64,000 nt of DNA from Cyanobacterium aponinum PCC 10605. Its GTDB lineage: Bacteria; Cyanobacteriota; Cyanobacteriia; Cyanobacteriales; Cyanobacteriaceae. Below are positions 21,154 to 45,451 of the stretch, piece after piece. The notes under the pieces were generated by a model. That model did no database searches, had not been told where the DNA came from, and saw only the letters and a list, made by a program, of their open reading frames with translations. Numbering within the stretch: position 1 is the first letter of the stretch; each line of letters opens with the position of its first letter. Both the position numbers and the translations under genes were made by a program. The stretch is taken from assembly GCF_000317675.1 (NCBI RefSeq), contig NC_019776.1, positions 2,790,001 to 2,854,000 of the forward strand, given 5' to 3'.

Positions 21154-21747
21154 ATGTATGAGTATCATAAATTAACTCCTCAACAAAGATTAGAATTAGT
21201 ACAAGAGAGACTTAAAAGGGGATTTCCCCCCCATTCCCCTCCTCACCCCATACAAATTGAGGGTTTTTATTTGCTTACAATTGCCTGTTATCAACATCAA
21301 AAGATTTTAAATAATTCTTCTCGCCGTCAACAATTATTAAACCTCTTGTTTGAAAAATGTATCCATGAAGCAATAGATATTAGGGGGTGGGTAATTTTGG
21401 TGAATCATTATCATTTATTGGTATATTTGCCTAATTTATCAATTCTCACTTCAATTTTTAAAGCTATTCACGGTGTTACTTCCTATCAATGGAATTTAGA
21501 AGATAATCAACGAGGGCGTAAAGTATGGTATCGTTTTAGCGATCGAGCTATTCGTTCCGAAAGACATTACTATACAACATTAAATTATATACATTATAAT
21601 CCAGTGAAACATAACTACGTCAATTCTCCCTATGATTGGTTAGAAAGTAGTGTACATTGGTATTTAGAGGAGAAAGGTAGAGAGTGGTTAAGGGATAGTT
21701 GGGTGAAATACCCTGTAAGAGACTGTGGTAAAGGATGGGATGATTAA
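21154..21747 (+). CDS. rayT: REP-associated tyrosine transposase (RAYT, Y1 HUH family)
   Basis: The 197-residue single-domain protein has the HUH-type motif as VNHYHLLVYL (His-x-His) and a downstream catalytic tyrosine region YTTLNYIHYNPVKHN typical of RAYT and IS200-like Y1 enzymes. These nick single-stranded DNA at hairpins and are associated with spread of REP sequences. The gene is intact and flanked on both sides by REP-like repeats, the classic REPtron layout. The N-terminus MYEYHKLTPQQRLELVQERL matches the cyanobacterial RAYT style. It interrupts the older coding remnant at 20711-21094, so it arrived later. Confidence 0.9.
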   Translation: MYEYHKLTPQQRLELVQERLKRGFPPHSPPHPIQIEGFYLLTIACYQHQKILNNSSRRQQLLNLLFEKCIHEAIDIRGWVILVNHYHLLVYLPNLSILTSIFKAIHGVTSYQWNLEDNQRGRKVWYRFSDRAIRSERHYYTTLNYIHYNPVKHNYVNSPYDWLESSVHWYLEEKGREWLRDSWVKYPVRDCGKGWDD

Positions 21748-21882: not shown

Positions 21883-21920
21883 TAAGCACTAAAATACTTC
21901 GTCACAGGATGATAACAGAC
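21883..21920 (-). repeat. Duplicated 3' end of metH, 38 bp
   Basis: On the minus strand it still encodes CYHPVTKYFSA followed by TAA. It matches the true metH end at 22485-22522 in 34 of 38 positions. The brnTA module lies exactly between the two copies. Confidence 0.85.
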
Positions 21921-21924
21921 CCAT

Positions 21925-22194
21925 TTAATGAGGTTTAATATAATCTCTCAATAAATCATTAATTTCTGTTTGATGCTTAATCTCATTTTCTTTGTACCAA
22001 TTCACAATTTCAGCATCAAGAAAAAGCGTTAAAGATTGTTTTTCTGGAGATTTTAAACCACGTCTAATGACAGCATTTTTAGCCATTTCTGGAGTAATTT
22101 CAGGGCAATCGGAAAAATCAATATTTTCATCACTCATTGATTCTAGTTTTTCCCAATCAGTCATAGATTTCATTGAAGTAAATTTGTTGCTCAT
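21925..22194 (-). CDS. brnA: BrnA-type antitoxin
   Basis: The 89-residue protein has an acidic N-terminal toxin-binding part (about 1-45) and a C-terminal ribbon-helix-helix domain (LTLFLDAEIVNWYKENEI to INDLLRDYI). This is the BrnA layout: it neutralises BrnT and represses the operon. The frame overlaps the end of brnT by 38 bases, so translation is coupled. The ATG at 22194 is used because it keeps the conserved N-terminus. It starts only a few bases from the duplicated metH end on its downstream side. Confidence 0.85.
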   Translation of the reverse strand: MSNKFTSMKSMTDWEKLESMSDENIDFSDCPEITPEMAKNAVIRRGLKSPEKQSLTLFLDAEIVNWYKENEIKHQTEINDLLRDYIKPH

Positions 22195-22432
22195 TTTTCG
22201 TTGCCTTTCGTGCTGATATAATTCTAATTTTATTACTTATCTCTGTATAAACAACAACAATGATTTTACCATTTAACAAGCCAATGGCAATAAATCTTTG
22301 TTCACCATAATTAAATCGATTATCTTCTATTGTAACCGTGTCATAATCAAATATTTTTCGAGCATCGATAAAATCTATACCGTGCTTAGTAATATTTGTT
22401 TGACGTTTATTCTCATCCCATTCAAATTTCAT
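22157..22432 (-). CDS. brnT: BrnT-type ribonuclease toxin
   Basis: The 91-residue protein starts MKFEWDENKRQTNITKHGID, the diagnostic opening of BrnT (RelE-like fold). It continues FIDARKIFDYDTVTI, then RFIAIGLLNGKIIVVVYTEI and IRIISARKAT, the conserved RISARKA-type end bearing the catalytic Arg. BrnT cleaves RNA and is held by BrnA. Toxin-first order is normal for this family. The module sits just after metH on the same strand, within a metH-derived direct repeat. Confidence 0.9.
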   Translation of the reverse strand: MKFEWDENKRQTNITKHGIDFIDARKIFDYDTVTIEDNRFNYGEQRFIAIGLLNGKIIVVVYTEISNKIRIISARKATKNEQQIYFNEIYD

Positions 22433-22460
22433 CTTTAATTATATTTATTTTTCATGTAGG

Positions 22461-22475
22461 GTGGGCATTGCCCAC
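22461..22475. repeat. GTGGGCATTGCCCAC dispersed palindrome
   Basis: GTGGGCA and TGCCCAC flank a central T. Variants occur at 20660 (degraded) and 54139-54153. It is preceded by TAGG and followed by CAAAA in a pattern common in cyanobacterial spacers. Confidence 0.75.
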
Positions 22476-22483
22476 CAAAACTT

Positions 22484-25400
22484 CTAAGCACTAAAATACT
22501 TAGCTACAGGATGATAACAAACGATCGCACTTGTGGACTGTTCGGGGTATATTTGTTCTGACTCATCCATATACATACCAATGCGTTTAGCGTCTAGTAA
22601 ATCTAATTGTACATACTGATCTTGCATATTCGGACAGGCAGGATAACCAAAACTATACCGTGAACCTTGATAATGTTGCTTAAAGATTTCTTTGATATTG
22701 TCAGGCTCTAAATGTCCAAAACCTAACTCACGGCGAATCCTTGCATGACACCATTCCGCCATCGCTTCCGCCGTTTGTACTGCCATACCATGATAATAGA
22801 GGTAATTGGTATATTCATCATTGGCAAACAGTTTTTGAGCGTATTCTGTGGCAATTTCTCCCACTGTCACCGCTTGGAGAGGGAAAACATCGATTATGCC
22901 TGAGTCTTTAGAGGCGAAAAAGTCCGCAATACATAGTCTTTTACCAGACTTTTGACGGGGAAATTCAAACTTGGCAATTTCTTCCTTCGCTTCTGGATTT
23001 TCCGGGTTATAAATATATAAAGTATTCCCCTCCGATTGACAAGGAAAATAACCATAAACTAGAGTAGGATGTAATAAATTTTCCGCTTTAATTTTGGCTT
23101 TCCATTCCTCTAAAATAGGATAAACTTTTTCTTGCAAAAACTGATCATATTCCTCTCTAGGTTGCCCTTGAGGTTTACGGAATTGCCATTGCCCTGCAAA
23201 CAGTGCTTGTAAGTCTAAATACCAGAGAATTTCGTCTAAATTAAGCTCATCAGGAGACATGATTTTTGTTCCCCAAAAAGGAGGAGTTGGACGTTCAATA
23301 TTTGGGTCAACTGCTTCACTTCTTCGGGTATCAATTTCTATTTTTTCTGACAGGCTAGAATCCTTTTTAAATTTTTCTTTTTCTTCCCCTGATTCATCAA
23401 AATTTCTCCCTTTAAAGAGATGATTTTCTTCGGCAAAATCTCCTAAAAATCCCTCAAAATCATCCCACTGATTGCTATGTTTAGAGGGCATTAATTTATC
23501 CATAAAATGCAAATCAGCAAAGGCATCTTTACCGTAAACTACTTTTCCTTTATAGGTTTTTTGACAGTCTTCATAGACAAATTTTGGAGTTAATGCCGCT
23601 CCCCCTAAGATAACAGGCACAGTAATTCCCTCTTGGTTAAATGTCTCTAAATTGTCTTTCATAAAAGCAGTGGATTTTACTAATAAACCACTCATAGCGA
23701 TACAATCTGCGTTCGATTCACGGTAGGCTTGAATAATGTTTTCTACGGGTTGTTTAATACCTAAATTAATCACTTTATAGCCATTATTAGACAGAATAAT
23801 ATCCACTAAATTTTTACCAATATCGTGAACATCTCCTTTCACCGTAGCGATTAAAAATGTACCTTTTCCACTACCATCACTATCCGCTTTATCCATAAAT
23901 GGTTCAAGAAAAGCAACGGCGGCTTTCATTGTTTGAGCAGATTGTAAAACGAAGGGTAATTGCATTTGTCCACTACCAAACAATTCTCCCACAACTTTCA
24001 TCCCATCTAATAAAAAGACGTTGATAATATCTAAGGGAGGATACTTTTCTAAGGCTATTTTTAACGCATCTTCTAAGCCGATTCTTTCTCCTTCAATAAT
24101 ATGTTGTTTTAGTCTTTCTTCGATGGGTAAATCTGCCACATTTTTCTTATTACTTTTAGTGGTTTTACCCTCAAATAAGGTGGTTAATTTTCCTAATGGA
24201 TCATAAGTACAAATATCGCCGTCAAATTCTCTTAAATCATAGATTAAATCACGGCATACTTTTAACGCTTCTTCGTCTATTTTTGCCAATGGTAATATTT
24301 TACTAGCAGATACGATCGCACCGTCCATCCCTACCTGCATGGCTTCATGGAGAAACACCGAGTTTAACACCTGTCTCGCCGCAGGATTCAACCCGAAGGA
24401 GATATTCGACACCCCTAACATAAAATGACATTCGGGGAACATTGCATGGATGCGTTGGATAGATTCGATCGTTGCTTTACCGTTTTCTCTGTCTTCCTCA
24501 ATCCCCGTAGAAATGGGCAAAGCAAGGGTATCAAAAAAGATTTCATGGGCAGGAATACCAAATTTAACTGCATCGTTATAAGCACGTTGGGCTATTTCCA
24601 CCTTTTTATCCGCCGTGCGTGCCATACCATCCTCATCGATTGTACCAATAACCACCCCTGCACCATATTCCTTGGCTAATTCCAACACCTTGAAAAATCG
24701 TTCTTCTCCGTCTTCGTAGTTGGTAGAGTTGAGGATACATTTACCCCCTGCAACCTTTAAACCTGCCTCCATTTTTTGCCACTCGGTGGAGTCTAACATC
24801 AAGGGGAGGGTAACATTATTCACCAGACGGGAAGCCAATTCGTGCATATCTTTTACCCCGTCGCGCCCCACATAATCTACGTTAACATCGAGGATGTGCG
24901 CCCCTTCTTTTACTTGGGCTTTGGCGAGGGAAATTAAACCATCCCAATCTTCGGCATTGAGTAAATCACGGCATTTTTTCGAGCCACTGGCATTGAGTCT
25001 TTCCCCTACAATTAAGAAAGAGTTATCCTGTTGATAGGGTTGAGTGGTGTAAATGGATGCCGCCGAAGGCTCATAATGATATTGTCTTTGTTTGGGTTTT
25101 AATGTACTGGCGATTTCTGCTAAGGCTCTAATATGCTCGTAACGGGTTCCACAACACCCGCCGATAATTTGAACCCCTAAGTCTTCGATGAAGTGCATTA
25201 ACGCCATGCGTAGTTCGATAGGTGTCAAGCGGTAATGAGCTTGTCCGCCCACGTTTTCGGGTAATCCTGCGTTGGGAATACAGGAGACAACAAAAGGAGA
25301 GTTTTCGCTCAAATATTTGATGTGGGGCTTCATCAAATCAGGACCGGTGGCACAGTTTAGCCCCATAATATCGATAGGATAGCGCTCTAAAATGGTGAGG

Positions 25401-26035
25401 GCGGCGTTAATTTCTGTACCCACTAACATTGTACCCATTGTCTCCATGGTAACGGATACCATGAGGGGAAGTCTTTCTCCTTTTTCGGCAAATACTTCTT
25501 CAATGGCGTTAAGGGCGGCTTTGATTTGTAAGACATCCTGACAGGTTTCGACTAATAATAAGTCAACCCCACCATCGTATAACCCTTGTACTTGGGTTAC
25601 ATAGGCGTTTTTGAGGGTGTCGTAGTCGATATGTCCTAGTGTTGGTAATTTTGTCCCAGGTCCCATGCTTCCTGCCACGAAACGGGGTTTTTCTGGGGTT
25701 GAATATTCATCGGCTAATCTTTTGGCAAGTTGGGCGGCGGTTTTGTTGAGATAATAGGAGCGATCGGCTAAGTCATATTCTGCTAAAACTAAGGGAGTAC
25801 CCCCAAAGGTGTCGGTTTCGATAACGTCTGCCCCTGCTTCCAAAAAGCCTCGATGCACGGTTTCTACGGCTTCAGGTTTAGTATGAACTAAATACTCGTT
25901 ACATCCTTCGTATTCTGCACCGCCAAAGTCTTCGGCTGTGAGGTTTTGCACTTGCAGATTCGTACCCATCGCACCATCAAATACTAGCACGGGGCGATCG
26001 CTGCTGTGTAGTCTTTCTAAAAATCGGCTTTTCAT
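22484..26035 (-). CDS. metH: Cobalamin-dependent methionine synthase
   Basis: The 1183-residue enzyme transfers a methyl group from methyltetrahydrofolate to homocysteine. It has all four modules. The homocysteine domain (1-320) has a zinc-ligand GGCCGT motif. The pterin domain (about 340-620) has [12 protein letters not shown] and [11 protein letters not shown]. The B12 domain (650-870) has [18 protein letters not shown] with the lower-ligand His737. The C-terminal reactivation domain binds S-adenosylmethionine ([15 protein letters not shown]). Length is slightly under the E. coli enzyme. No riboswitch is evident in the 130-bp leader. Fragments of both of its ends occur nearby, each bracketing a toxin-antitoxin module, but this copy is intact. 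Confidence 0.97.
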
Positions 26036-26165: not shown

Positions 26166-27179
26166 ATGACTCAATCCATTTGTCCGATTTGTGAGGGAGA
26201 AATGAATTTTCATTTTTCTGTTCCTTGTGATTATCGAAAACCTTCAGAGAAAAAAGAGTATAAAGTATTTTGGTGTTCTGCGTGCGATTATGGTCACATT
26301 TGGGATAGACCCTTATGGAATGAAATAAAAGAATCTTATCAAATAGATAATTACTATACTCATCAAACACAAAATGAACAAAAGAATAAGAAGCTCAGAC
26401 AAAATTCCCTAGAAGAAAAACTAAGGATATATATAGCTTGGCGTTTTGATTTTGGAGAACATCTAAAGCTCAAGGAAATTTCCTCTTATTTAAGACAAAA
26501 GAAAGTAGAAAATACACCAAAAGAAGGAAGCGTTGAAAAATTATCTATTTGTGAGATTGGGTGCGGAAGTGGGAAAAACTTAAAAAAATTCGCTTCTCTG
26601 GATTTTGATATTTTTGGAGTAGAACCTGATGAAGAAGCGAGAAAAGTGGCTTTATCCATAACTGATTCTATTTTTTCAGGTACTGCAGAAGAATTGCCAA
26701 CTATAATTACTCAGAGAAAATATGACTGTGTATTAATGTCTCATTCCTTAGAACACACTCTTGATATTAATAAAACTATAAGAAATATTAAAAGTGTATT
26801 ATGCGATTATGGTTTATTAATTATTGAAATTCCAAACTCTAAATGTTTAGGTTTTCAGAAACTTAAGGGTGAGTGGCCTTGGTCTGATATACCAAGACAT
26901 TTAAACTTTTTTACTCCTCAAAGTTTAAAATTACTTCTGGAGAGATATAATTTTTATGTTGAGTCAACTAATTATGTGGGATTTTGCCGGCATTTTTTCC
27001 CCACATGGTTAGACATTGAAAAGGAAATTCATAGTGCGTTTGCTTCTAACAATATTGATGAGTGGAAAACTCCTAACTATAAGCTAAGATCTTGGATTCT
27101 ATTACTACAAACTTTGTTATCTTCAAATGAGACTAAATATGACTCAGTGAGGATGATTGCTATTAATAATCAAAGTTAA
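26166..27179 (+). CDS. SAM-dependent methyltransferase with N-terminal zinc-binding segment
   Basis: The 337-residue protein begins with CPIC and, about 30 residues later, CSAC, a four-cysteine knuckle. The class I methyltransferase domain starts at about residue 128 with CEIGCGSGKN, followed by FGVEPDEEAR and MSHSLEHTLD. This architecture is typical of enzymes in surface glycan or secondary-metabolite clusters, and of sugar C-methyltransferase relatives. Target unknown. It is AT-rich, lacks HIP1 sites and lies between metH and a metH fragment, suggesting it arrived with the surrounding rearrangements. Confidence 0.8.
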   Translation: MTQSICPICEGEMNFHFSVPCDYRKPSEKKEYKVFWCSACDYGHIWDRPLWNEIKESYQIDNYYTHQTQNEQKNKKLRQNSLEEKLRIYIAWRFDFGEHLKLKEISSYLRQKKVENTPKEGSVEKLSICEIGCGSGKNLKKFASLDFDIFGVEPDEEARKVALSITDSIFSGTAEELPTIITQRKYDCVLMSHSLEHTLDINKTIRNIKSVLCDYGLLIIEIPNSKCLGFQKLKGEWPWSDIPRHLNFFTPQSLKLLLERYNFYVESTNYVGFCRHFFPTWLDIEKEIHSAFASNNIDEWKTPNYKLRSWILLLQTLLSSNETKYDSVRMIAINNQS

Positions 27180-27290
27180 TAGGTGCGATCGGCTAGATTA
27201 TATTCTGCTAAAACTATGGGAATAGCCCCAAAGGAGTCGGGCTTTGCACTTACAAATTCGTATCCATCGCACCATCAAATATTAGTAGAT
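27180..27290 (-). pseudogene. Decayed metH fragment, left of hicBA
   Basis: Two pieces of the metH 5' region are joined. 27180-27241 corresponds to 25757-25812 (GCGATCGGCTA, ATATTCTGCTAAAACTA, CCCCAAAGG). 27242-27290 corresponds to 25942-25990 (TTGCACTT, ATTCGTA, CCATCGCACCATCAAATA). About 130 bp between them have been lost. It begins directly at the stop codon of the methyltransferase gene. Confidence 0.8.
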
Positions 27291-27327
27291 GCTAGGTACT
27301 TAAATGAGGTTACAATAAAGGCTATAG

Positions 27328-27555
27328 TTATGACTCAAACTCTTTTCTCGGTATTTGAGATTGACGAATAATAGATTGAAGTGTACCCATTCTAATTGTA
27401 TCATGATTGGGTATTGGAACGGTAATAGTACCATTTTCTATAATTTTCTGCATAATGATATGACTACCTTTTTGCCGTATTTGCTTGAATCCGTATGTTG
27501 CTAAAATTTGACAAACTTCTTTTCCTGAAAGTATGCGTAATTTACCCAACAGCAA
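27328..27555 (-). CDS. hicA: HicA-type mRNA interferase toxin
   Basis: A 75-codon frame encodes KLRILSGKEVCQILATYGFK and QIRQKGSHIIMQK with the catalytic His of the HicA dsRBD-like fold, then VPIPNHDTIRMGTLQSIIRQ. HicA cleaves mRNA and is blocked by HicB. No ATG is available: candidate starts are TTG at 27555 or, more in line with the family, TTG at 27549 (GKLRIL). It overlaps the end of hicB by a few bases, indicating translational coupling. Confidence 0.88.
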   Translation of the reverse strand: MLLGKLRILSGKEVCQILATYGFKQIRQKGSHIIMQKIIENGTITVPIPNHDTIRMGTLQSIIRQSQIPRKEFES

Positions 27556-27766
27556 CCTCCAAACGAGTTATATAAACCTCATTATGTAATCTAGTATCTA
27601 TTTCCTGAGAAGATGCAGTTTCAAAAAATAATTCTAAGGCTTCTTTAAGGTTATTTCTAGCTTCTTCAATAGTATCACCTTGACTAACAATATCTAATTC
27701 AGGGCAAAGAGAGACATAACCATCTCCCTCTTTTTCAATAATTGCCGTTAGTTGTTTATATTTCAT
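27542..27766 (-). CDS. hicB: HicB-type antitoxin
   Basis: The 74-residue protein has the partial RNase H-like HicB fold: AIIEKEGDGYVSLCPELDIV, SQGDTIEEARNNLKEALELF, then an unstructured end. A DNA-binding C-terminal helix pair is missing, as in the short HicB subclass. Antitoxin-first order is common in cyanobacteria. The module is bracketed by 29-bp direct repeats derived from metH. Confidence 0.88.
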   Translation of the reverse strand: MKYKQLTAIIEKEGDGYVSLCPELDIVSQGDTIEEARNNLKEALELFFETASSQEIDTRLHNEVYITRLEVAVG

Positions 27767-27850
27767 TCTAAGAGTGTTGAATTGATTAATTTACAATAAT
27801 AATAACCTCATCTTAACTATAAATTGACAAGGAATTGATTTAAAAACTAT

Positions 27851-27951
27851 AAATTCGTACCCATCGCACCATCAAATATGCTTCACGGGTCGATCTCTCC
27901 GATTTGCGGCGCGCATCTATATAGTCTTTCTAAAAATCGTCTTTTACATAA
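27851..27951 (-). pseudogene. Decayed metH 5' end, right of hicBA
   Basis: AAATTCGTACCCATCGCACC opens a stretch that matches the first 80 bases of metH (25956-26035), through TAGTCTTTCTAAAAATCG to the former start codon. The middle is scrambled. Its first 29 bp repeat 27254-27282 with one mismatch. The following 170 bp to futA hold nothing recognisable. Confidence 0.8.
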
Positions 27952-28125: not shown

Positions 28126-29178
28126 CTATTTCCATCCTGCACGATCCATAATTTTCACAGCATTAGCTAAATTAGGACCATATTTCGCAACACTGGTAAC
28201 ATCGGACTTGAAACTACCAAAACTAGCCAATACAGGATCTAACGCAATACCTTCAACCACAGGATATTCATTATTTCCTTGAGCGAAAAATCTTTGGGCG
28301 CTAGGACTAACTAAATATTCTAAGAATTTAACAGCACCGGCTCTATTTGGAGCGTTTTTAAGTACCCCACCACCGCTAATATTGGCATGAGCTCCTCTAC
28401 CTTTTTGATTTGGGAAGAAAACACCTACTTTATTGAAAATAGCTTTTTTCTGAGGATCATTAGACGCTCCATAACCAGCTAAATAATAAGTATTGGCTAC
28501 CGCTAAATCCGCAATTCCTGCCGCTACTGCTTCAATTTGATCGCGATCGCCTCCTTGGGGTGGACGAGCCATATTAGCTACAATCCCCCGACACCATTCC
28601 TCTGTTTTTTGTTGCCCATTAATAGCAATTAACCAAGCAACTAAAGATTGATTATAAATATTACTAGAGGAGCGAATAGCAATTTTTTTACGCCATTTAG
28701 AATTAGCTAAATCCTCATAAGTAGATAATTGACTAGGGTTAACTTTACTCTTGTTATACATAATTACCCTAATACGCTTACTAAAACCAAACCAATTATT
28801 ATTAGGATCTCGAAAATAAGAAGGGATTTTTTGAGTTAAAACCGAAGAAGATACTGGGCTAAAAATCCCTGCTTGTTGTGCCTGCCATAAATTACCCGCA
28901 TCAGCAGTCAAGAATACATCAGCCTTGGAGTTTCTGCCCTCACTTCTAATTCTTTCTAATAGTTGTTCTGCTTTACCTTCTACTAAATTAACCTTAATAC
29001 CTGTTTGCTTTTCAAAATCAGTGTAGAGTCTTTGATCTGTGTTGTAGTGACGAGAAGAATAAAGATTAATTTGTTTTGCTTGGGCGGAAGAACTTTTAAT
29101 TCCAGTTAATTCCCCTAGCGCTACCGCACCAATAGCGGCACTTGTGCCTAAAAAAACTCTTCTAGTAATTTTACTCAT
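28126..29178 (-). CDS. futA: Iron(III) ABC transporter substrate-binding protein, FutA type
   Basis: The 350-residue protein starts with a twin-arginine signal (TRRVFLGTSAAIGAVALG) and continues INLYSSRHYNTDQRLYTDFE. The family iron-binding tyrosines lie in SSRHY and NTYYLAGYG. The VFLTADAGNLWQAQQAG segment, SGGGVLKNAPN and NNEYPVVEG are also characteristic. FutA delivers Fe3+ to FutB/FutC in the periplasm, or in some forms protects photosystem II from the inside. The permease and ATPase genes are not adjacent. No clear Fur box was recognised upstream. Confidence 0.93.
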   Translation of the reverse strand: MSKITRRVFLGTSAAIGAVALGELTGIKSSSAQAKQINLYSSRHYNTDQRLYTDFEKQTGIKVNLVEGKAEQLLERIRSEGRNSKADVFLTADAGNLWQAQQAGIFSPVSSSVLTQKIPSYFRDPNNNWFGFSKRIRVIMYNKSKVNPSQLSTYEDLANSKWRKKIAIRSSSNIYNQSLVAWLIAINGQQKTEEWCRGIVANMARPPQGGDRDQIEAVAAGIADLAVANTYYLAGYGASNDPQKKAIFNKVGVFFPNQKGRGAHANISGGGVLKNAPNRAGAVKFLEYLVSPSAQRFFAQGNNEYPVVEGIALDPVLASFGSFKSDVTSVAKYGPNLANAVKIMDRAGWK

Positions 29179-38599: not shown

Positions 38600-41500
38600 C
38601 TAACTGACCTTAAATTTAGCCACATCAGACTCTAATTTTCTAGCAAGAGACCTTAACTGAATAAAGGATTGAGAAAGTTGAGTTACCGAAGAATTAGTTT
38701 TTTCAGCTACCTTTGCCACATCTCCCATTGTGATACTAACTTCCTCCGAGTTTTCTGACTGTTCAAATGCTGCAGCCGCGATCGCTTCTACTAACTCGTT
38801 AATCTGTACGGTAGCGGCGGTAATTTGGTTAAGACTCTGGCGGGTTTCCTCTACCAGTTTACTACCCTCAACAACTAATTCATTGCCCTCTTCCATGGAA
38901 GTTACCACCACCTTTGTTTCTGAAAGAATGTCCGTCACTAACTTGTCAATGTCAGCCGTTGCCTGAGCAGACTGAGTCGCTAAAGCCCGAACCTCATCAG
39001 CAATCACCGCAAAGCCCTGTCCTTGCTCTCCAGCTCGTGCCGCTTCAATGGAGGCTTTCAAAGCCAAAAGGTGTGTTTGAGCGGCAAATCTGCCAATCAG
39101 AGACACGAAATTGGAAATATTTTCTGTGGTATCCCCTAGTTTTTTAACCTGATCTGCGGCTTGTTGTACAGTGGCACGAATATCCATAATTGAGCGCACG
39201 GTTTTATTCATTGCTGAATCTCCCACAGCAACGCTTTCTTGAGCTTTGATTAGGGCTTCTTCCGCTTGTTCCGCACTTTCTGCCACAATTTTACTAGAAC
39301 GACTCATAGCATTTACCGTTTGTAAGGCTTGAGCAATATTTTCTACCTGTTCAGCAATTTCTAAGCGCAGAATTTCCATGTCACTTTCATTATTACTGGT
39401 AGTTTGAGCTACTTCTAACGCCGCATTTTGTACTTGGGATACAATTTGTCTTAAACTTTCAATGGTGGCGTTATAAGAGTCAGCAATCGTACCGATTTCA
39501 TCTTCCGTAACAGTGGCACGAATGGTTAGATCCCCTTTAGAAACAGGGTCAACTTGCATTAATAGTTCTAACGCTCTTTGTTGTAATAACTCTTTTGCCT
39601 GTCTTTGTTCTTGCTCTGCCTGTAACTGTAAGTCAATCAATTTGACTCTTTCTAAAGCTAGTCCTACTTGAGTGGCAACTTGAGTCATAAAGTCAATTTC
39701 TGAGGGTTCCCATTCTCTTATGTTTGAACATTGGTGACAAATCAATAAGCCGATTAATTTACGGTTAACGATAATGGGGGCAACTAAGTTGGCTTTTACC
39801 TCAAAAGGATCTAATTGTTTTAGGTGACATAAAGTTAATCCTGCATTGTGAATATCTGGAGTTGCTTGAACTCTGCCCTGCAAATATTTTTCTACATATT
39901 CTTCTTCAAAACAAGGATCATGGATTTTCGCACCGAGGGCTTGAGGATAGCCTTCTGCTACAGATTCAGCAATGATTGTACCTTGCCATTTTTCATCAAA
40001 TTCATAAACAATAGAGCGATCGCATCTCAATACTTTACGAGTCTCTAAAACTGCGGTATCCATAACCTCCTGCGGACTTAAACCTTCAGCTAAATTAAGG
40101 GTTATTTCTTTGAGTTGTTCTGCACGAGTTGCCGAAGTCATTTGGGCTTTTAAGATATTAACCCGGTCTAAAATTACTCCGTATCGTAAAGCAATTTGAC
40201 TTAAGAAAGAGATTTCTTTTTCTTGCCATTGATGATGTTGACGACAATGATGGGCAATCAATAAAGCAAATAGTTGTCCTTGACTGATGATGGGAATAAC
40301 TAAATTGGATTTGATTTGTAAGCGGTGCATCAAGGCTTCATGTTCAGGAGCAAACCCTGCGGTATAAACATTTTCTGTTGCCACAACCCTACCGTTTATA
40401 TAAGAATCCCTTAAGGATAAAGGAATACAAGGATCATTTAACTGCTCACTCAAAGCACTGGGTAAATCTGGATCTCCTGCTTCATTGCTAATATAACCAC
40501 TCCAATTAGGCTTAAAGCGATAGATAACAAGACGATCAACTTCTAAAATTTCTTTTGCTTTTGGTAAACTGCGATCGAACACTTGATTAATATCATCTTC
40601 ATCAACTACCCTTGCCCCCGTAATTTCTTGGAATAAACTGGCTTTTTCTGCATCTAATAAAAGTAAAGTTTCATTACTTTCAATATTTTCTGCGAGTAAA
40701 TTAAATGTATCCGCTAAATCACCAATTTCATCCTGTCCAACAATATTTGCCCTTACTCGATAGTTACCTTCAGCAAATTGAGTGGTCGTTTTTTGTAACT
40801 GTTCTAAACGATTTGCAATAACTCTTCCTAAAACAATTATCAGAATAAAATTAAGAATTAATACGATTAGTGCCGTTTGTCCTTGAGTTTTAAGGCTATT
40901 GGCAATAATTTGATTAAGTGCTTTTTCAGGAGTCCCCCGTACTAAAATGGCCACAGGTTCACCGGCTTTATTTTGAATGGTCTGGGCAGTAAAAGTAAAA
41001 GTTTCGTCCCCTACTTTATCTCTGAAAGAAACAATTTGATTGGGATTTTCTAATGCTAACTCCAATAATTTTTGACTAGCAATTAGCTGATTCGTTGTAT
41101 CTTCATTATTGGTAGCAGAACTAGCTAAAGAGATATTATCTTCGGAGTTAACCTGATAAACCGCACTATACCCCCCCTTAAACTCATTAATCGTATCAAA
41201 TACAATGGAATATTTCCCGTTAACCACGTCTCCAGAAACTAACACCCCTATCACTTGATCCCGATTGTTGGGGTTAAAAACAGGAGTAAAAGTATAACGA
41301 ATAACCACATCTTGATTAGGAATTAGACGAGGCAACAAAGGAGGATTTTCTGCTTGTAAATCTTGCCAAGAAACAATTTCAGTAGTTTTGATTTGTTGGG
41401 GATTATTAATTACTTGAGAAACTAAGCCATTGGGATCAAAAACCTCCCCTGCCCGATTATTATTAGCACTAACAATTATTCTCTGATCTCTTCCCACTAA

Positions 41501-41971
41501 AGTAGCATACTCAATATTACGAGCAGTAATTTCATTTTGAAGAATTTGTTTCACTAAACTTTGTTGAGTGGGAGTCAAACTATTACCATTAGCACGAGTT
41601 AAAGCGGCGTTGATAATTGCAACGTTATCCGATTGTCCCCGAAAACCGAAGCCCATCTGATTAATTTTAATGTCGTAGTTAATCTTGGTGGCTTCTAGCT
41701 CAGAAATTGATTGGTTAATAAGTTGCTCTCTACCACCTGTAACAATTTCTAAAACACCTACTCCTAAAAGTACGGCAAAAGAAATGGCTTGAGCTCCTAC
41801 TACTACTAACAATTGTTTTTTACGAATGGATAAATCATAAAACCATTTCACCACGGGGGGGGTTGTATTCACAGGAGGGGTTTTTTGATTTCTTGTGGCA
41901 TAAACAGGAGAAGTATTTCCTTTTTCCTGAGTGGTTGATTGTAAACTTGGTTTTTCTGGTGCTTGAGTCAT
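38600..41971 (-). CDS. Chemoreceptor with GAF domains, PixJ-like phototaxis sensor 1
   Basis: The 1123-residue protein has a short cytoplasmic start, TM1 (about 52-73), an extracytoplasmic sensor, TM2 (about 365-385) and a HAMP domain. A GAF domain without chromophore cysteine (about 470-600, [16 protein letters not shown]) is followed by a second GAF (about 640-790). A HAMP-like linker and methyl-accepting signalling domain come last. GAF2 has DPCF with Cys687 and LCHLKQL with Cys715, the two-cysteine signature of DXCF-type cyanobacteriochromes that bind phycoviolobilin or phycocyanobilin. The signalling hairpin reads [20 protein letters not shown]. It resembles Synechocystis PixJ1/TaxD1. 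No CheA or CheW gene is adjacent. Confidence 0.92.
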
Positions 41972-42097: not shown

Positions 42098-45000
42098 CTA
42101 GCTAACCTTAAACTTACTAATGGTGTCTTGTAAACTATCAGCAACTTTTTGTAACTTTTTAAAACTACGAGCCACTTGAGTCACTGCATTAGAAGTATCA
42201 TTGGAAATTCCTGCTACCTCTGCCATAGTTTCGGTAATGGATTCAGAGGTTTGAGATTGTTCTGCCGCCGAAGCTGCGATCGCAGTTACCAGTTGACTAA
42301 TTAAAGCAGATGCGGCTGTAATATCGTTCAGACTTTGACGGGTTTCTTCCACCAGTTTTGTCCCTTCGACTACCTGCTCAGTACCAGTTTCCATCGCTTT
42401 GACAACTTCGTTGGTTTCTTCTTGAATTTCCGCAACCACTTTTTCAATTTCCGCCGTCGCTTCAGCAGACTGACGAGCGAGGGAACGAACTTCTTCGGCT
42501 ACCACCGCAAAACCTCGTCCTTCTTCCCCTGCGTGCGCCGCCTCGATGGAAGCATTCAACGCCAAGAGGTTAGTTTGGTCCGCAAAACTACCAATCAGGT
42601 TAACTACCTTAGAAATTTTTTGAGTTGACTCTCCTAATCTTTTTACTTTTTTCGCTGTTTCGGCTACTGTTTCTCGAATTGCCAAAATACCGTCCACTGT
42701 GCGGTTCATAGCAACTTCTCCTTCTTCTACACTGCGGTTTGCTTGTTTTACCGCCTCTTCTGCTTGTTCTGCATTATCTAATACTGTACGAGCCGAAAAA
42801 GCCAAAATCTGAATTTTTTCCAAGGCAACGTTAATATCATCCGCCTGACGAATTACTTCTTGTGCTAGATTTTCTACATAGTTGTTTTGCTCCGTAACAA
42901 CCTGATTAACTGCCTTTGTACCTCCTTGTACCTGAGTTACAATTTTTCTTAAACTTTCAATGGTGGCGTTATAAGAGTCAGCAATCGTACCGATTTCATC
43001 TTCTGTTACTGTTGCCCGAATGGTTAAATCTCCTTGAGAAACAGGATCAACCTGCATTAATAATTCTAATGCTCTTTGTTGCATGGTTTCCCGTGCTTTT
43101 CTTTGTTCTAACTCAGATTCTTGTTGCTTATTTAAAAGTCTGATTCTTTCTAAAGCGGGGCCAATTTGAGTTGCTAATTGAGACAAGAAATTGCATTCAG
43201 AAGGAGTCCATTGACGAGGTTTATCACATTGATGAGCAATTAATAAGCCTAGTAGTTCACCATCCACAATAATCGGGGTAACTAAATTAGCTTTTACTTC
43301 AAAAGGTTCTAGCTGTTGAATATGACAACTGGTTAAACCGGCTGTATAAATGTTGTTGGTGGCTTGAACTCTACCTTGTTTATACTTATCAACGTATTTA
43401 TCAGCAAAACAAGGATCTTTTATTTTTGATCCTAGTGCCTTGGGGTATTTTGGATCAACAGATTCAACAATAACTGTACCTTTCCAATCCTCATCAAAAG
43501 TGTAAATAATTACTCGGCTGGCATTTAGGGCTTCTCTACCCATATTTGTTGCCACTTCAAACACTTTATCTTGATTTAACGCTTCGGCTACTTTGAAAGT
43601 AATGTCTTTTAATTGTTGAGATAACAAAGTATCTAGTTGCTGAGATTCTAATAAAATAACCCTTTGTAAAGCAGGTCCCATTTGAGTTGCGGTTTGTCCG
43701 AAAAAGTCAATTTCTTGAGATGTCCAATTTCTAGGGCTTGAACATTGATGGGCAATTAATAAGCCAAGAAGTCTATTCTCTACAATGATAGGAGCAACTA
43801 AATTAGCTTTTACGGCAAAGGGTTCTAATTGTTGAAGATGACATTCTGTTAGTCCAGCTTTATAAATATCTGGGGTTGCTTGAACTCTGCCTTGTAGATA
43901 CTTATCAACGTATTTATCCTCAAAACAAGGATCATGAATTTTTGCCCCCAATGATTGAGGGTAGTTAGAGTTGACTGACTCTGCAATAATTGTTCCTTGC
44001 CAATTATCATCAAAACTATAGACAATGACGCGATCGCTCTGTAGTGCTTGACGAATCTCTCTAACAGCAATTTCAAAAACTTCATTGACATTAAAAGCCT
44101 TTGTCATCTCTAGGGTAATATTCTTGAGTAAATTAGACTGACTGGCTAAGATTTGTTGCTCTACAAGTAAGTTTTTCAACTGATAGGTCATGTTATTGAC
44201 ACTATTACCTAACTGGGCAATCTCATCATCTCCTTTAATATCTAAAGATGCGTCTAAATCTCCTTCCGCAATCTGTTTAATTGTTTTTGAAGTTTTTTCG
44301 ATGGGATTAACAATTAATCCTGCACTGGTATAGGCAATATAACCAACTACCCCCCCAGAAATTAAAATCCCCAGAAAGATGAAAGTTGTAATGCGATTAA
44401 CAGGAGCGAGGATAACACTTGTATCTCCCGCTAAAACCAATCCCCAATTTAAAGGATTAGTTCCTAAATCAACCTCAATAGGAGCATAGGTAACTACCTG
44501 GTTGGTTTTTGTAATTTGATTTCTATCTTCGACAGTGATTCCTTGATCAGATGAATCTTGCCATCTCAATTGCGGAAATACTTGTTCGAGAGATTTTACA
44601 GATTCTTTTGTACTTTCTGTGGTGGTTTTTCCTGTGGTGGAAACGTTAGTCGAGTAGATAGTATCAGAGGATAAAAATATTTGACTATTCCCGTCAACAA
44701 GGTAAATATTTTCTCCGCTACCTTCGACAGTTTCATTTCTCGCAATAAACTTTTGCAGTTCCTCCACAGGGACTCTTGCCCTCAAATAGCCTGTAATTTG
44801 ATTAGTATTAGGATCTATAAGAGCGGAAGCAAAATAAACTCCGTAAGTACCATCCCATTCAGAAATAATTGGTTCACTGACAATAGTTCCTTTTGCCTGT
44901 CTCGCTTGTTGAATATAGGTTCTTTCACTATGGTTGGGCATGGAGCGTCCATTGCTTTCTGCTAGTGCATTAACTTGTGCATCAAATACTGCAATACTGT

Positions 45001-45451
45001 CAAAGTATTTATATAAAGTTTGAAAGTCACTCAACCGTTTTTGTAATCTTGCTTTATCTTGTTGTTGATAAGAAGACAATTCGGGTATTACTTGCGCCAT
45101 ACCCTGAACTTGGGCAAAACGGTCTCCAATGATTAAATCAAAATCTTGGCTAATGATTTGGGCTTCTTCTTCTTGTGTTCTTTTGATTTCTGCTCGAAAT
45201 ACTTGGTTTAATGTGACACCAATTACACTCCCAACAATAATAATGGGTAATAAACCCAATGCGATCGCGATCGAGGAAGTTTTAAACCTAAGATTTTTAC
45301 TTTGCCACCATTGAATTAAACTTTGAGATGATTGATTATTTGTCGGGCGTTTTGGTGGTTGTTTTTGTGTCGATGGAGAGGGGGATAATTCTTGATTTTG
45401 ATTAGCCTTTTTTTGCTCTTGACGGTCAGCTTGGGGGGAAGTTTGAGTCAT
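42098..45451 (-). CDS. Chemoreceptor with two bilin-type GAF domains, PixJ-like phototaxis sensor 2
   Basis: The 1117-residue protein has TM1 (about 60-85), a dCACHE-type periplasmic sensor (about 90-350, with [17 protein letters not shown] and [20 protein letters not shown] at its end), TM2, HAMP, two GAF domains and a signalling domain with [20 protein letters not shown]. Both GAFs carry the DPCF and CH cysteines (Cys509/Cys537 and Cys681/Cys709), so both could bind a bilin. Upstream of the signalling region the 49 residues [16 protein letters not shown] to [10 protein letters not shown] are almost identical to receptor 1. The genes are probably a local duplication and may be co-transcribed; the 126-bp gap contains repeat fragments. 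Confidence 0.92.

Follow-up and report, generated by a model that had tools for sequence, protein, structure and literature searches.

Tyrosine recombinase elements that enter gene ends (tRNA genes and prfC) leave an intact gene together with a displaced end fragment, and they accrete in tandem. Restriction-modification (RM) genes reportedly insert with long target duplication, a mode for which Nobusato et al. 2000 (Gene 259:99) is said to be the cited source. In the portions of the literature cited here, RM genes are described as inserting with long, variable target duplications (PMC1643837, PMC3031569, PMC3874152), and a review of toxin-antitoxin (TA) systems cites Nobusato et al. 2000 in its passage on restriction-modification systems (PMC2654758). 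For Arabidopsis, the cited part of one paper describes transposed genes with genic flanking repeats and proposes the re-insertion of a circle excised between repeats (PMC2869330). The movement of stand-alone TA modules from one chromosome to another in the absence of a transposon is poorly understood; our literature search turned up no description of target-duplicating insertion of a TA module in the portions of the sources it covered, and we do not claim that none is in print.

The metH locus of Cyanobacterium aponinum PCC 10605 resembles RM insertion, as described in those portions of the RM literature, in that a self-contained addiction-type pair lies between direct target copies, a relative has the empty site, no transposase is present, and the duplications are variable in length and on the order of 100 bp. 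It differs in its cargo, which consists mostly of TA modules, in the window hicBA and brnTA and not RM genes (these occur at other loci, e.g., L179 and in G003), in that metH, a housekeeping gene, has repeatedly served as a target at either end, in three genera, and in that the fragments stack as arrays, with metH-locus cassettes closer between genera than metH is. With the Arabidopsis genes, as far as the cited part describes them, it shares direct repeats from the target locus that flank a gene without a transposon; the differences are that Arabidopsis is a eukaryote and that circle re-insertion was proposed there (PMC2869330). Judged from sequence comparison, the mode of mobility described for RM genes may here extend to TA modules.

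The window, which is the whole stretch of 64,000 nucleotides analyzed here, contains the following features at this locus (TA roles are predicted).

21154-21747, plus strand: IS200-type (RAYT-like) transposase gene, ancestral downstream flank (Pfam Y1_Tnp, E 3e-5); adjoins metH in G004 and G005
21883-21920, minus strand: metH 3' fragment, the last 38 bp; abuts the flank found directly behind metH in G004 and G005
21925-22194, minus strand: brnA antitoxin gene, 89 aa (Pfam BrnA_antitoxin, E 4e-9)
22157-22432, minus strand: brnT toxin gene, 91 aa (Pfam BrnT_toxin, E 9e-30)
22460-22476, no strand assigned: GGTGGGC/GCCCACC hairpin just past the metH stop; this short palindrome is dispersed in the family
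22484-26035, minus strand: metH, B12-dependent methionine synthase, intact ORF of 1183 aa (Pfam S-methyl_trans, Pterin_bind, B12-binding, Met_synt_B12)
26166-27179, plus strand: methyltransferase-fold gene, 337 aa, which separates metH from the near fragment and is probably an additional cargo gene (Pfam Methyltransf_23, E 6e-25)
27174-27285, minus strand: near metH 5' fragment, codons 17-31 fused to codons 74-96, minus 126 bp (87% over 67 bp and 89% over 46 bp)
27254-27282, minus strand: 29-bp repeat, copy 1, from the region of metH codons 17-26; one mismatch against copy 2
27328-27555, minus strand: hicA toxin gene, 75 aa (Pfam HicA_toxin, E 5e-18)
27542-27766, minus strand: hicB-like antitoxin gene, 74 aa, named from its position and a subthreshold HicB/UPF0150 match
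27851-27879, minus strand: 29-bp repeat, copy 2, from self-comparison
27853-27949, minus strand: far metH 5' fragment, codons 1-26 plus a 14-bp insertion (71% over 94 columns, E 7e-9)
28126-29178: substrate-binding-protein-like gene beyond the far 5' fragment, named by eye from the sequence

According to the original prediction, which was made from the letters and ORFs of the window, hicA-hicB is framed by fragments of the metH start region, a 29-bp piece recurs on both sides with one mismatch, and both TA modules around the intact metH are framed by metH-derived repeats, one from each end of the gene. Self-comparison of 10 kb around the locus bore out each of these points. On the 5' side, metH positions 25749-25815 match 27174-27240 (67 bp, 87%, E 5e-17), positions 25942-25987 match 27240-27285 (46 bp, 89%, E 5e-11), and positions 25958-26032 match 27853-27945 (94 columns including the 14-bp insertion, 71%, E 7e-9). 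The two 5' fragments overlap by ∼30 bp in metH coordinates, and this overlap is the 29-bp repeat, which lies within a match of 27251-27282 to 27848-27879 (32 bp, 94%, E 9e-8; one mismatch in the 29-bp core). At the other end of the gene, positions 22485-22522 match 21883-21920 (38 bp, 89%, E 3e-8), with brnTA enclosed. Every fragment in the window has the orientation of metH. When the metH 5' end was used as the query against its own genome (2 contigs), only metH and the three window pieces matched, and no gene was found that the fragments resemble more closely; the 3' query returned metH, the 38-bp fragment, and three places that match the hairpin region alone. The stop codon of the methyltransferase gene sits at the edge of the near fragment. 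Between the fragments, the ORFs of the window are those of hicBA, brnTA, and the methyltransferase, with no transposase or integrase inside the units. The HicA, BrnT, and BrnA profiles exceeded the Pfam cut-off, and the HicB match fell below it. The GGTGGGC-N-GCCCACC palindrome stands directly behind metH, behind several metH fragments, and at many places in relatives, with an IS200-type transposase gene nearby. Elsewhere in the window, adjacent ORFs of ∼1,120 aa (38600-41971 and 42098-45451) are 69 to 73% alike at the DNA level over several stretches and form a tandem paralog pair.

The family search covered 15 genomes, 13 of which had a metH match and 12 a metH locus with both flanks. End fragments, defined as matches to the gene's own end, on the matching side, within 5 kb, and with an E value of 1e-5 or better, were present in 8 of the 12 complete loci (G000, G014, G009, G012, G008, G010, G003, and G001) and absent by the same measure, within 5 kb, from G004, G005, G006, and G007. 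In the thirteenth genome with metH, G011, the locus is split over contigs and a second copy of a metH end is present; G013 had no metH match. As a control, ORFs of at least 200 aa in 78 spaced 20-kb stretches were examined with a near-identical criterion, and end fragments were found for 9 of 468 genes (0/124 in G000, 6/124 in G008, 3/115 in G014, and 0/105 in G010). Five of these nine were judged to be reciprocal hits of neighboring tandem paralogs, and the other four rows represent three loci with the same architecture and TA or RM cargo. All fragments in the 12 metH loci stem from the first 287 or the last 181 bp of the 3.55-kb gene, and no interior pieces of metH were found in these loci.

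Comparison across relatives, which had been proposed as a check, revealed a site free of brnTA in G004 and G005: the sequence behind the 38-bp fragment in G000 is the sequence directly behind metH in these two genomes (G000 +566 to +1402 matches G004 −36 to +725). No such empty site was found on the hicBA side, where the flanks upstream of metH are too divergent between genomes. Of the two interpretations first offered, repeated integration at metH is well supported by the 8 of 12 loci, their varied cargo, and the site free of brnTA in relatives, and an old metH array did not hold up, as set out below. Outside the family, 10 of 80 metH loci (two of which also belong to family members) gave any hit, and three of these (L118, L147, and L145) were judged to be copies of metH coding ends; most other hits lie behind the stop codon or resemble dispersed repeats, and that of L133 matches an interior stretch. 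With 3 of 80 loci so judged, we rejected the notion that the phenomenon is common to metH in all cyanobacteria.

Several further observations were made at these loci. L118, from a Xenococcaceae metagenome-assembled genome outside the family, has two 81-bp copies of the metH 3' end (83 to 84%) at ∼4.0 to 4.3 kb from the metH start. G010 has, in an intergenic region far from metH (C1:1319707-1319750; L225 9710-9750), a 41-bp piece of the metH 5' region (95%) with no TA or other cargo gene called beside it, which counts against the reading proposed below. Five genomes share, behind metH, a stretch of about 120 bp that matches the 5' end of an ORF resembling a DNA methyltransferase (G000 +1993 to +2112, G003 +3682, G009 +2289, G012 +2350, and G014 +2428); this ORF is long only in G012 and is a second gene with end fragments behind metH. 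The 5' fragment in G008 is 95 to 96% identical to metH of G010, G012, and G014 and 91% identical to its own metH, and one idea is that the 5' end of the intact gene in G008 might have been replaced by a donor allele.

The cargo is diverse. Modules of the hicAB and brnTA types lie between or beside metH and its fragments in several genomes, and further cargo at the metH locus includes PemK (G014), ParE and a CoiA-like nuclease (G008), an N6-methylase with a specificity-like partner resembling a type I RM system (G003), an AAA ATPase and DndB (G012), a dGTPase-like protein (G009), and a NACHT-TIR protein (G010). Two of ten cargo proteins had no match in a Pfam scan, and two of ten had none in a PADLOC scan, in which the window methyltransferase matched weakly (24 bits); the latter is not a clear defense gene. 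The downstream cargo named for G009, G010, and G012 adjoins metH, in G009 and G012 without a 3' fragment within 5 kb, so that not all cargo is framed.

Some cassettes are more similar between genomes than metH is. The metH gene of G003 is 84.5 to 86% identical to those of G000, G014, and G008 (65 to 69% at third positions), whereas hicAB is 94.4% identical between G003 and G008 (metH, 84.5%), and the whole brnTA unit including both repeats is 90 to 91% identical between G000 and G003 (metH, 86%). Further values were 90% for brnTA of G000 and G003, 90% for a brnTA-like module of G003 and G014, and 88% for hicBA of G000 and G003. In G003, metH 3' fragments ∼600 bp apart form an array separating same-strand TA pairs, and the G000 unit (metH end, hairpin, brnTA, metH end) matches a unit inside this array from end to end. 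These data fit a transfer of ready-made cassettes between genera with the metH-derived repeats serving as homology; transfer may also have taken another route. Within the G000 group, cargo is about as alike as metH or less so (e.g., brnTA of G000 and G008, 88% versus 91.5%), and not every comparison therefore indicates recent transfer. Fragments nearer to the gene are more gene-like (87 to 89% and then 71% in the window; 92.5% and then 84% in L179), which is consistent with an order of accretion.

Genes other than metH show this architecture as well. Three 5' fragments of a radical-SAM gene in G008 lie upstream of that gene and separate a MamI-type restriction system, a DUF6883 gene, and a PemK module from one another; downstream of the gene is a 3' fragment of 350 bp. 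At this locus, a DNA methylase ORF (L179:11396-12427) opens with the duplicated 5' end of the radical-SAM gene (LITPEIFKP.RYL), and the fragment may thus supply the start and leader of the methylase. A class V aminotransferase (NifS-like) gene of G008 has a 52-bp 5' fragment beyond a VapBC pair, and a PIN gene is bracketed by like repeats in G000 (118 bp) and G010 (52 bp), apparently from the same NifS-like target gene. Behind a type IIG gene of G014 come a PemK module and then a 127-bp, 91% copy of the 3' end of that gene. In G005, VapBC lies between two 77-bp, 97% copies of the start of a type I specificity gene (hsdS); G001 has the same neighbors, a single copy of the hsdS start, and no VapBC, and is a clean empty site. 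Relatives of this VapBC in G008, G003, and G000 share with G005 only the stretch that runs from 4 to 6 bases before vapB toward the vapC end, reaching that end in G008, nearly reaching it in G003, and covering 376 bp in G000; no hsdS sequence was found beside VapBC in these three genomes. The G005 joint coincides with the stop codon of vapC, and a short TAAT-like stretch is common to cargo and target at this point, a single case that proves nothing.

We propose, with a probability of about 0.7, that small TA and defense cassettes were inserted repeatedly at metH as a landing site, with copying of the target, and that the cassettes were later exchanged. Each insertion would copy a stretch of the target and leave the cassette between the intact gene and a gene-end fragment. 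Over all loci, the duplicated stretches measure from 29 bp to about 350 bp, those of the window being short (29 and 38 bp) and those elsewhere ranging from 52 to 350 bp. In the window, the methyltransferase gene would have entered the metH 5' end, leaving a fragment of codons 1 to 96, after which hicBA would have entered that dead fragment at codons 17 to 26 and created the repeat of ∼29 bp. The simplest account of hicBA is, in other words, insertion into an older metH 5' fragment and not into metH itself, with the 29-bp repeat as its own target duplication, and no further event would then be needed to explain the ends of the fragments; a 126-bp deletion and a 14-bp insertion would have followed in the fragments. 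At the other end of the gene, brnTA would have entered at the metH stop codon, leaving the 38-bp fragment beside the old flank. Thereafter, the direct repeats and metH would offer homology through which cassettes could be exchanged, accreted, and lost among strains and genera. The footprints, the empty sites (for brnTA and in the vapBC case), the recurrence, and the enrichment of direct repeats around TA genes described below are observed; the order of events, the exchange by homologous recombination, and the joining reaction are what we infer. The joining reaction may have been a staggered break with fill-in or template switching during repair, both of which would fit. The location at gene ends may require no targeting, because insertions with long duplications would spare a gene only near its ends.

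Other explanations can be weighed against these structures. Small circles or linear pieces that already carried a piece of metH could have integrated at metH by Campbell-type homologous recombination, which we consider possible but on balance doubtful. The brnTA unit with both of its repeats, closer between G000 and G003 than metH and arrayed in G003, speaks for such pieces, as does an incoming unit that brought its own hairpin behind metH, and the final structures do not separate target duplication from the integration of a circle carrying a metH piece. The relatives of the G005 VapBC, however, have no adjoining similarity to hsdS, which means that in this case the cargo moved without a piece of its target, and repeats of 29 to 40 bp are short for RecA-dependent exchange. 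A site-specific recombinase acting at att-like sites in the metH ends, with each element bringing a replacement gene end, appears unlikely. Direct repeats of gene ends next to an intact gene are its usual footprint, and like the elements in tRNA genes and prfC, the metH units show an intact gene, a displaced gene end, and tandem accretion; unlike them, they are ∼0.6 kb long, have no common 5' core, and show no recognized integrase in the list of ORFs that lie between fragments. The 5' fragments of G012 (−59 to +32) and G003 (+32 to +60) do not overlap, and we therefore rejected a single att site for the 5' side; the inner ends of the 3' fragments also vary (−35, −37, −45, −121, and −177). One inner boundary is shared, to the same base or nearly so, by five brnTA-type units, which counts against target copying and could mean site-specific joining, but common descent explains it, because the brnA 3' ends of these units are homologous (86% between G000 and G014).

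It is very unlikely that the fragments go back to an earlier array of complete metH genes in tandem that TA cassettes replaced in part, which the original prediction had offered as one of its two readings. Direct fragments on both sides with the right polarity would suit such an array, but only end pieces (the first 287 and last 181 bp) occur in the 12 loci, G004 and G005 have no second copy, and other genes show the same pattern with other cargo; a whole or decayed array of metH was rejected on the ground that only gene ends are found. An integron-like cassette array with its own integrase is more improbable still. The same-strand TA units of ∼600 bp separated by repeats in G003 recall the arrays of TA cassettes in Vibrio super-integrons, as described in the cited part of the TA review (PMC2654758), from which the metH arrays differ in that no integrase exceeded the cut-off (0 of 15 genomes) and in their repeats, which consist of metH coding sequence. 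The longest array, that of G003, lies in a genome with no integron integrase match at an E value of 0.001, and a partial integron integrase below the cut-off was seen in G013, the genome without a metH match. Least credible of all is chance similarity or an assembly artifact, for which we found no supporting point: E values of 1e-7 to 1e-17 within 10 kb speak against chance, as had been anticipated, and structures of this type recur in several genomes that were assembled independently.

Returning to repeated insertion with target copying, the ends of metH might act as an integrase-free platform that cassettes enter by target duplication and on which they are then stacked, swapped, and passed between genera by homologous recombination; more widely, the TA modules of the family would themselves be mobile in this way. 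We hold this broader reading tentatively, at somewhat less than even odds. Were it true, a core gene and its own end fragments would take the place of an integron integrase and its attachment sites. The footprints are kept, in that end fragments would mark arrivals, relatives hold empty sites, and one gene forms a layered record in three genera. A TA gene together with a duplicated end of a neighboring gene is a signature that can be searched for in any genome, and metH offers a natural setting for catching the joining reaction in the act.

TA genes were sampled at 120 loci of the family (30 each for BrnT, HicA, PemK, and PIN), of which 110 were testable for direct repeats spanning the toxin gene within 1.5 kb. 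Such repeats bracketed 31 of the 110 toxin genes and 14 of 480 random places (Fisher's test, 1e-14; 2e-12 without the four metH loci), a ratio that overstates the case because many of the 31 loci have dispersed or intergenic repeats, one of them a CRISPR-like array. By toxin, the counts were 8/25 for BrnT, 15/29 for HicA, 3/28 for PemK, and 5/28 for PIN. Under a strict rule, which requires one of the two copies to form the end of an ORF of at least 150 aa and its partner to lie outside all such ORFs, the gene-end type was found at 8 of 110 TA loci and 1 of 480 random places, and that one place was the VapBC locus of G008. Our verdict is that the architecture widens into a general property of TA modules in the family. 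G008 is rich in TA genes, with 38 HicA and 49 PIN matches in 4.3 Mb. In L274 (G011:C136; 1396-1425 and 2116-2231), a 30-bp repeat with 43-bp spacing lies beside a HicA gene, and an identical copy lies on the other side.
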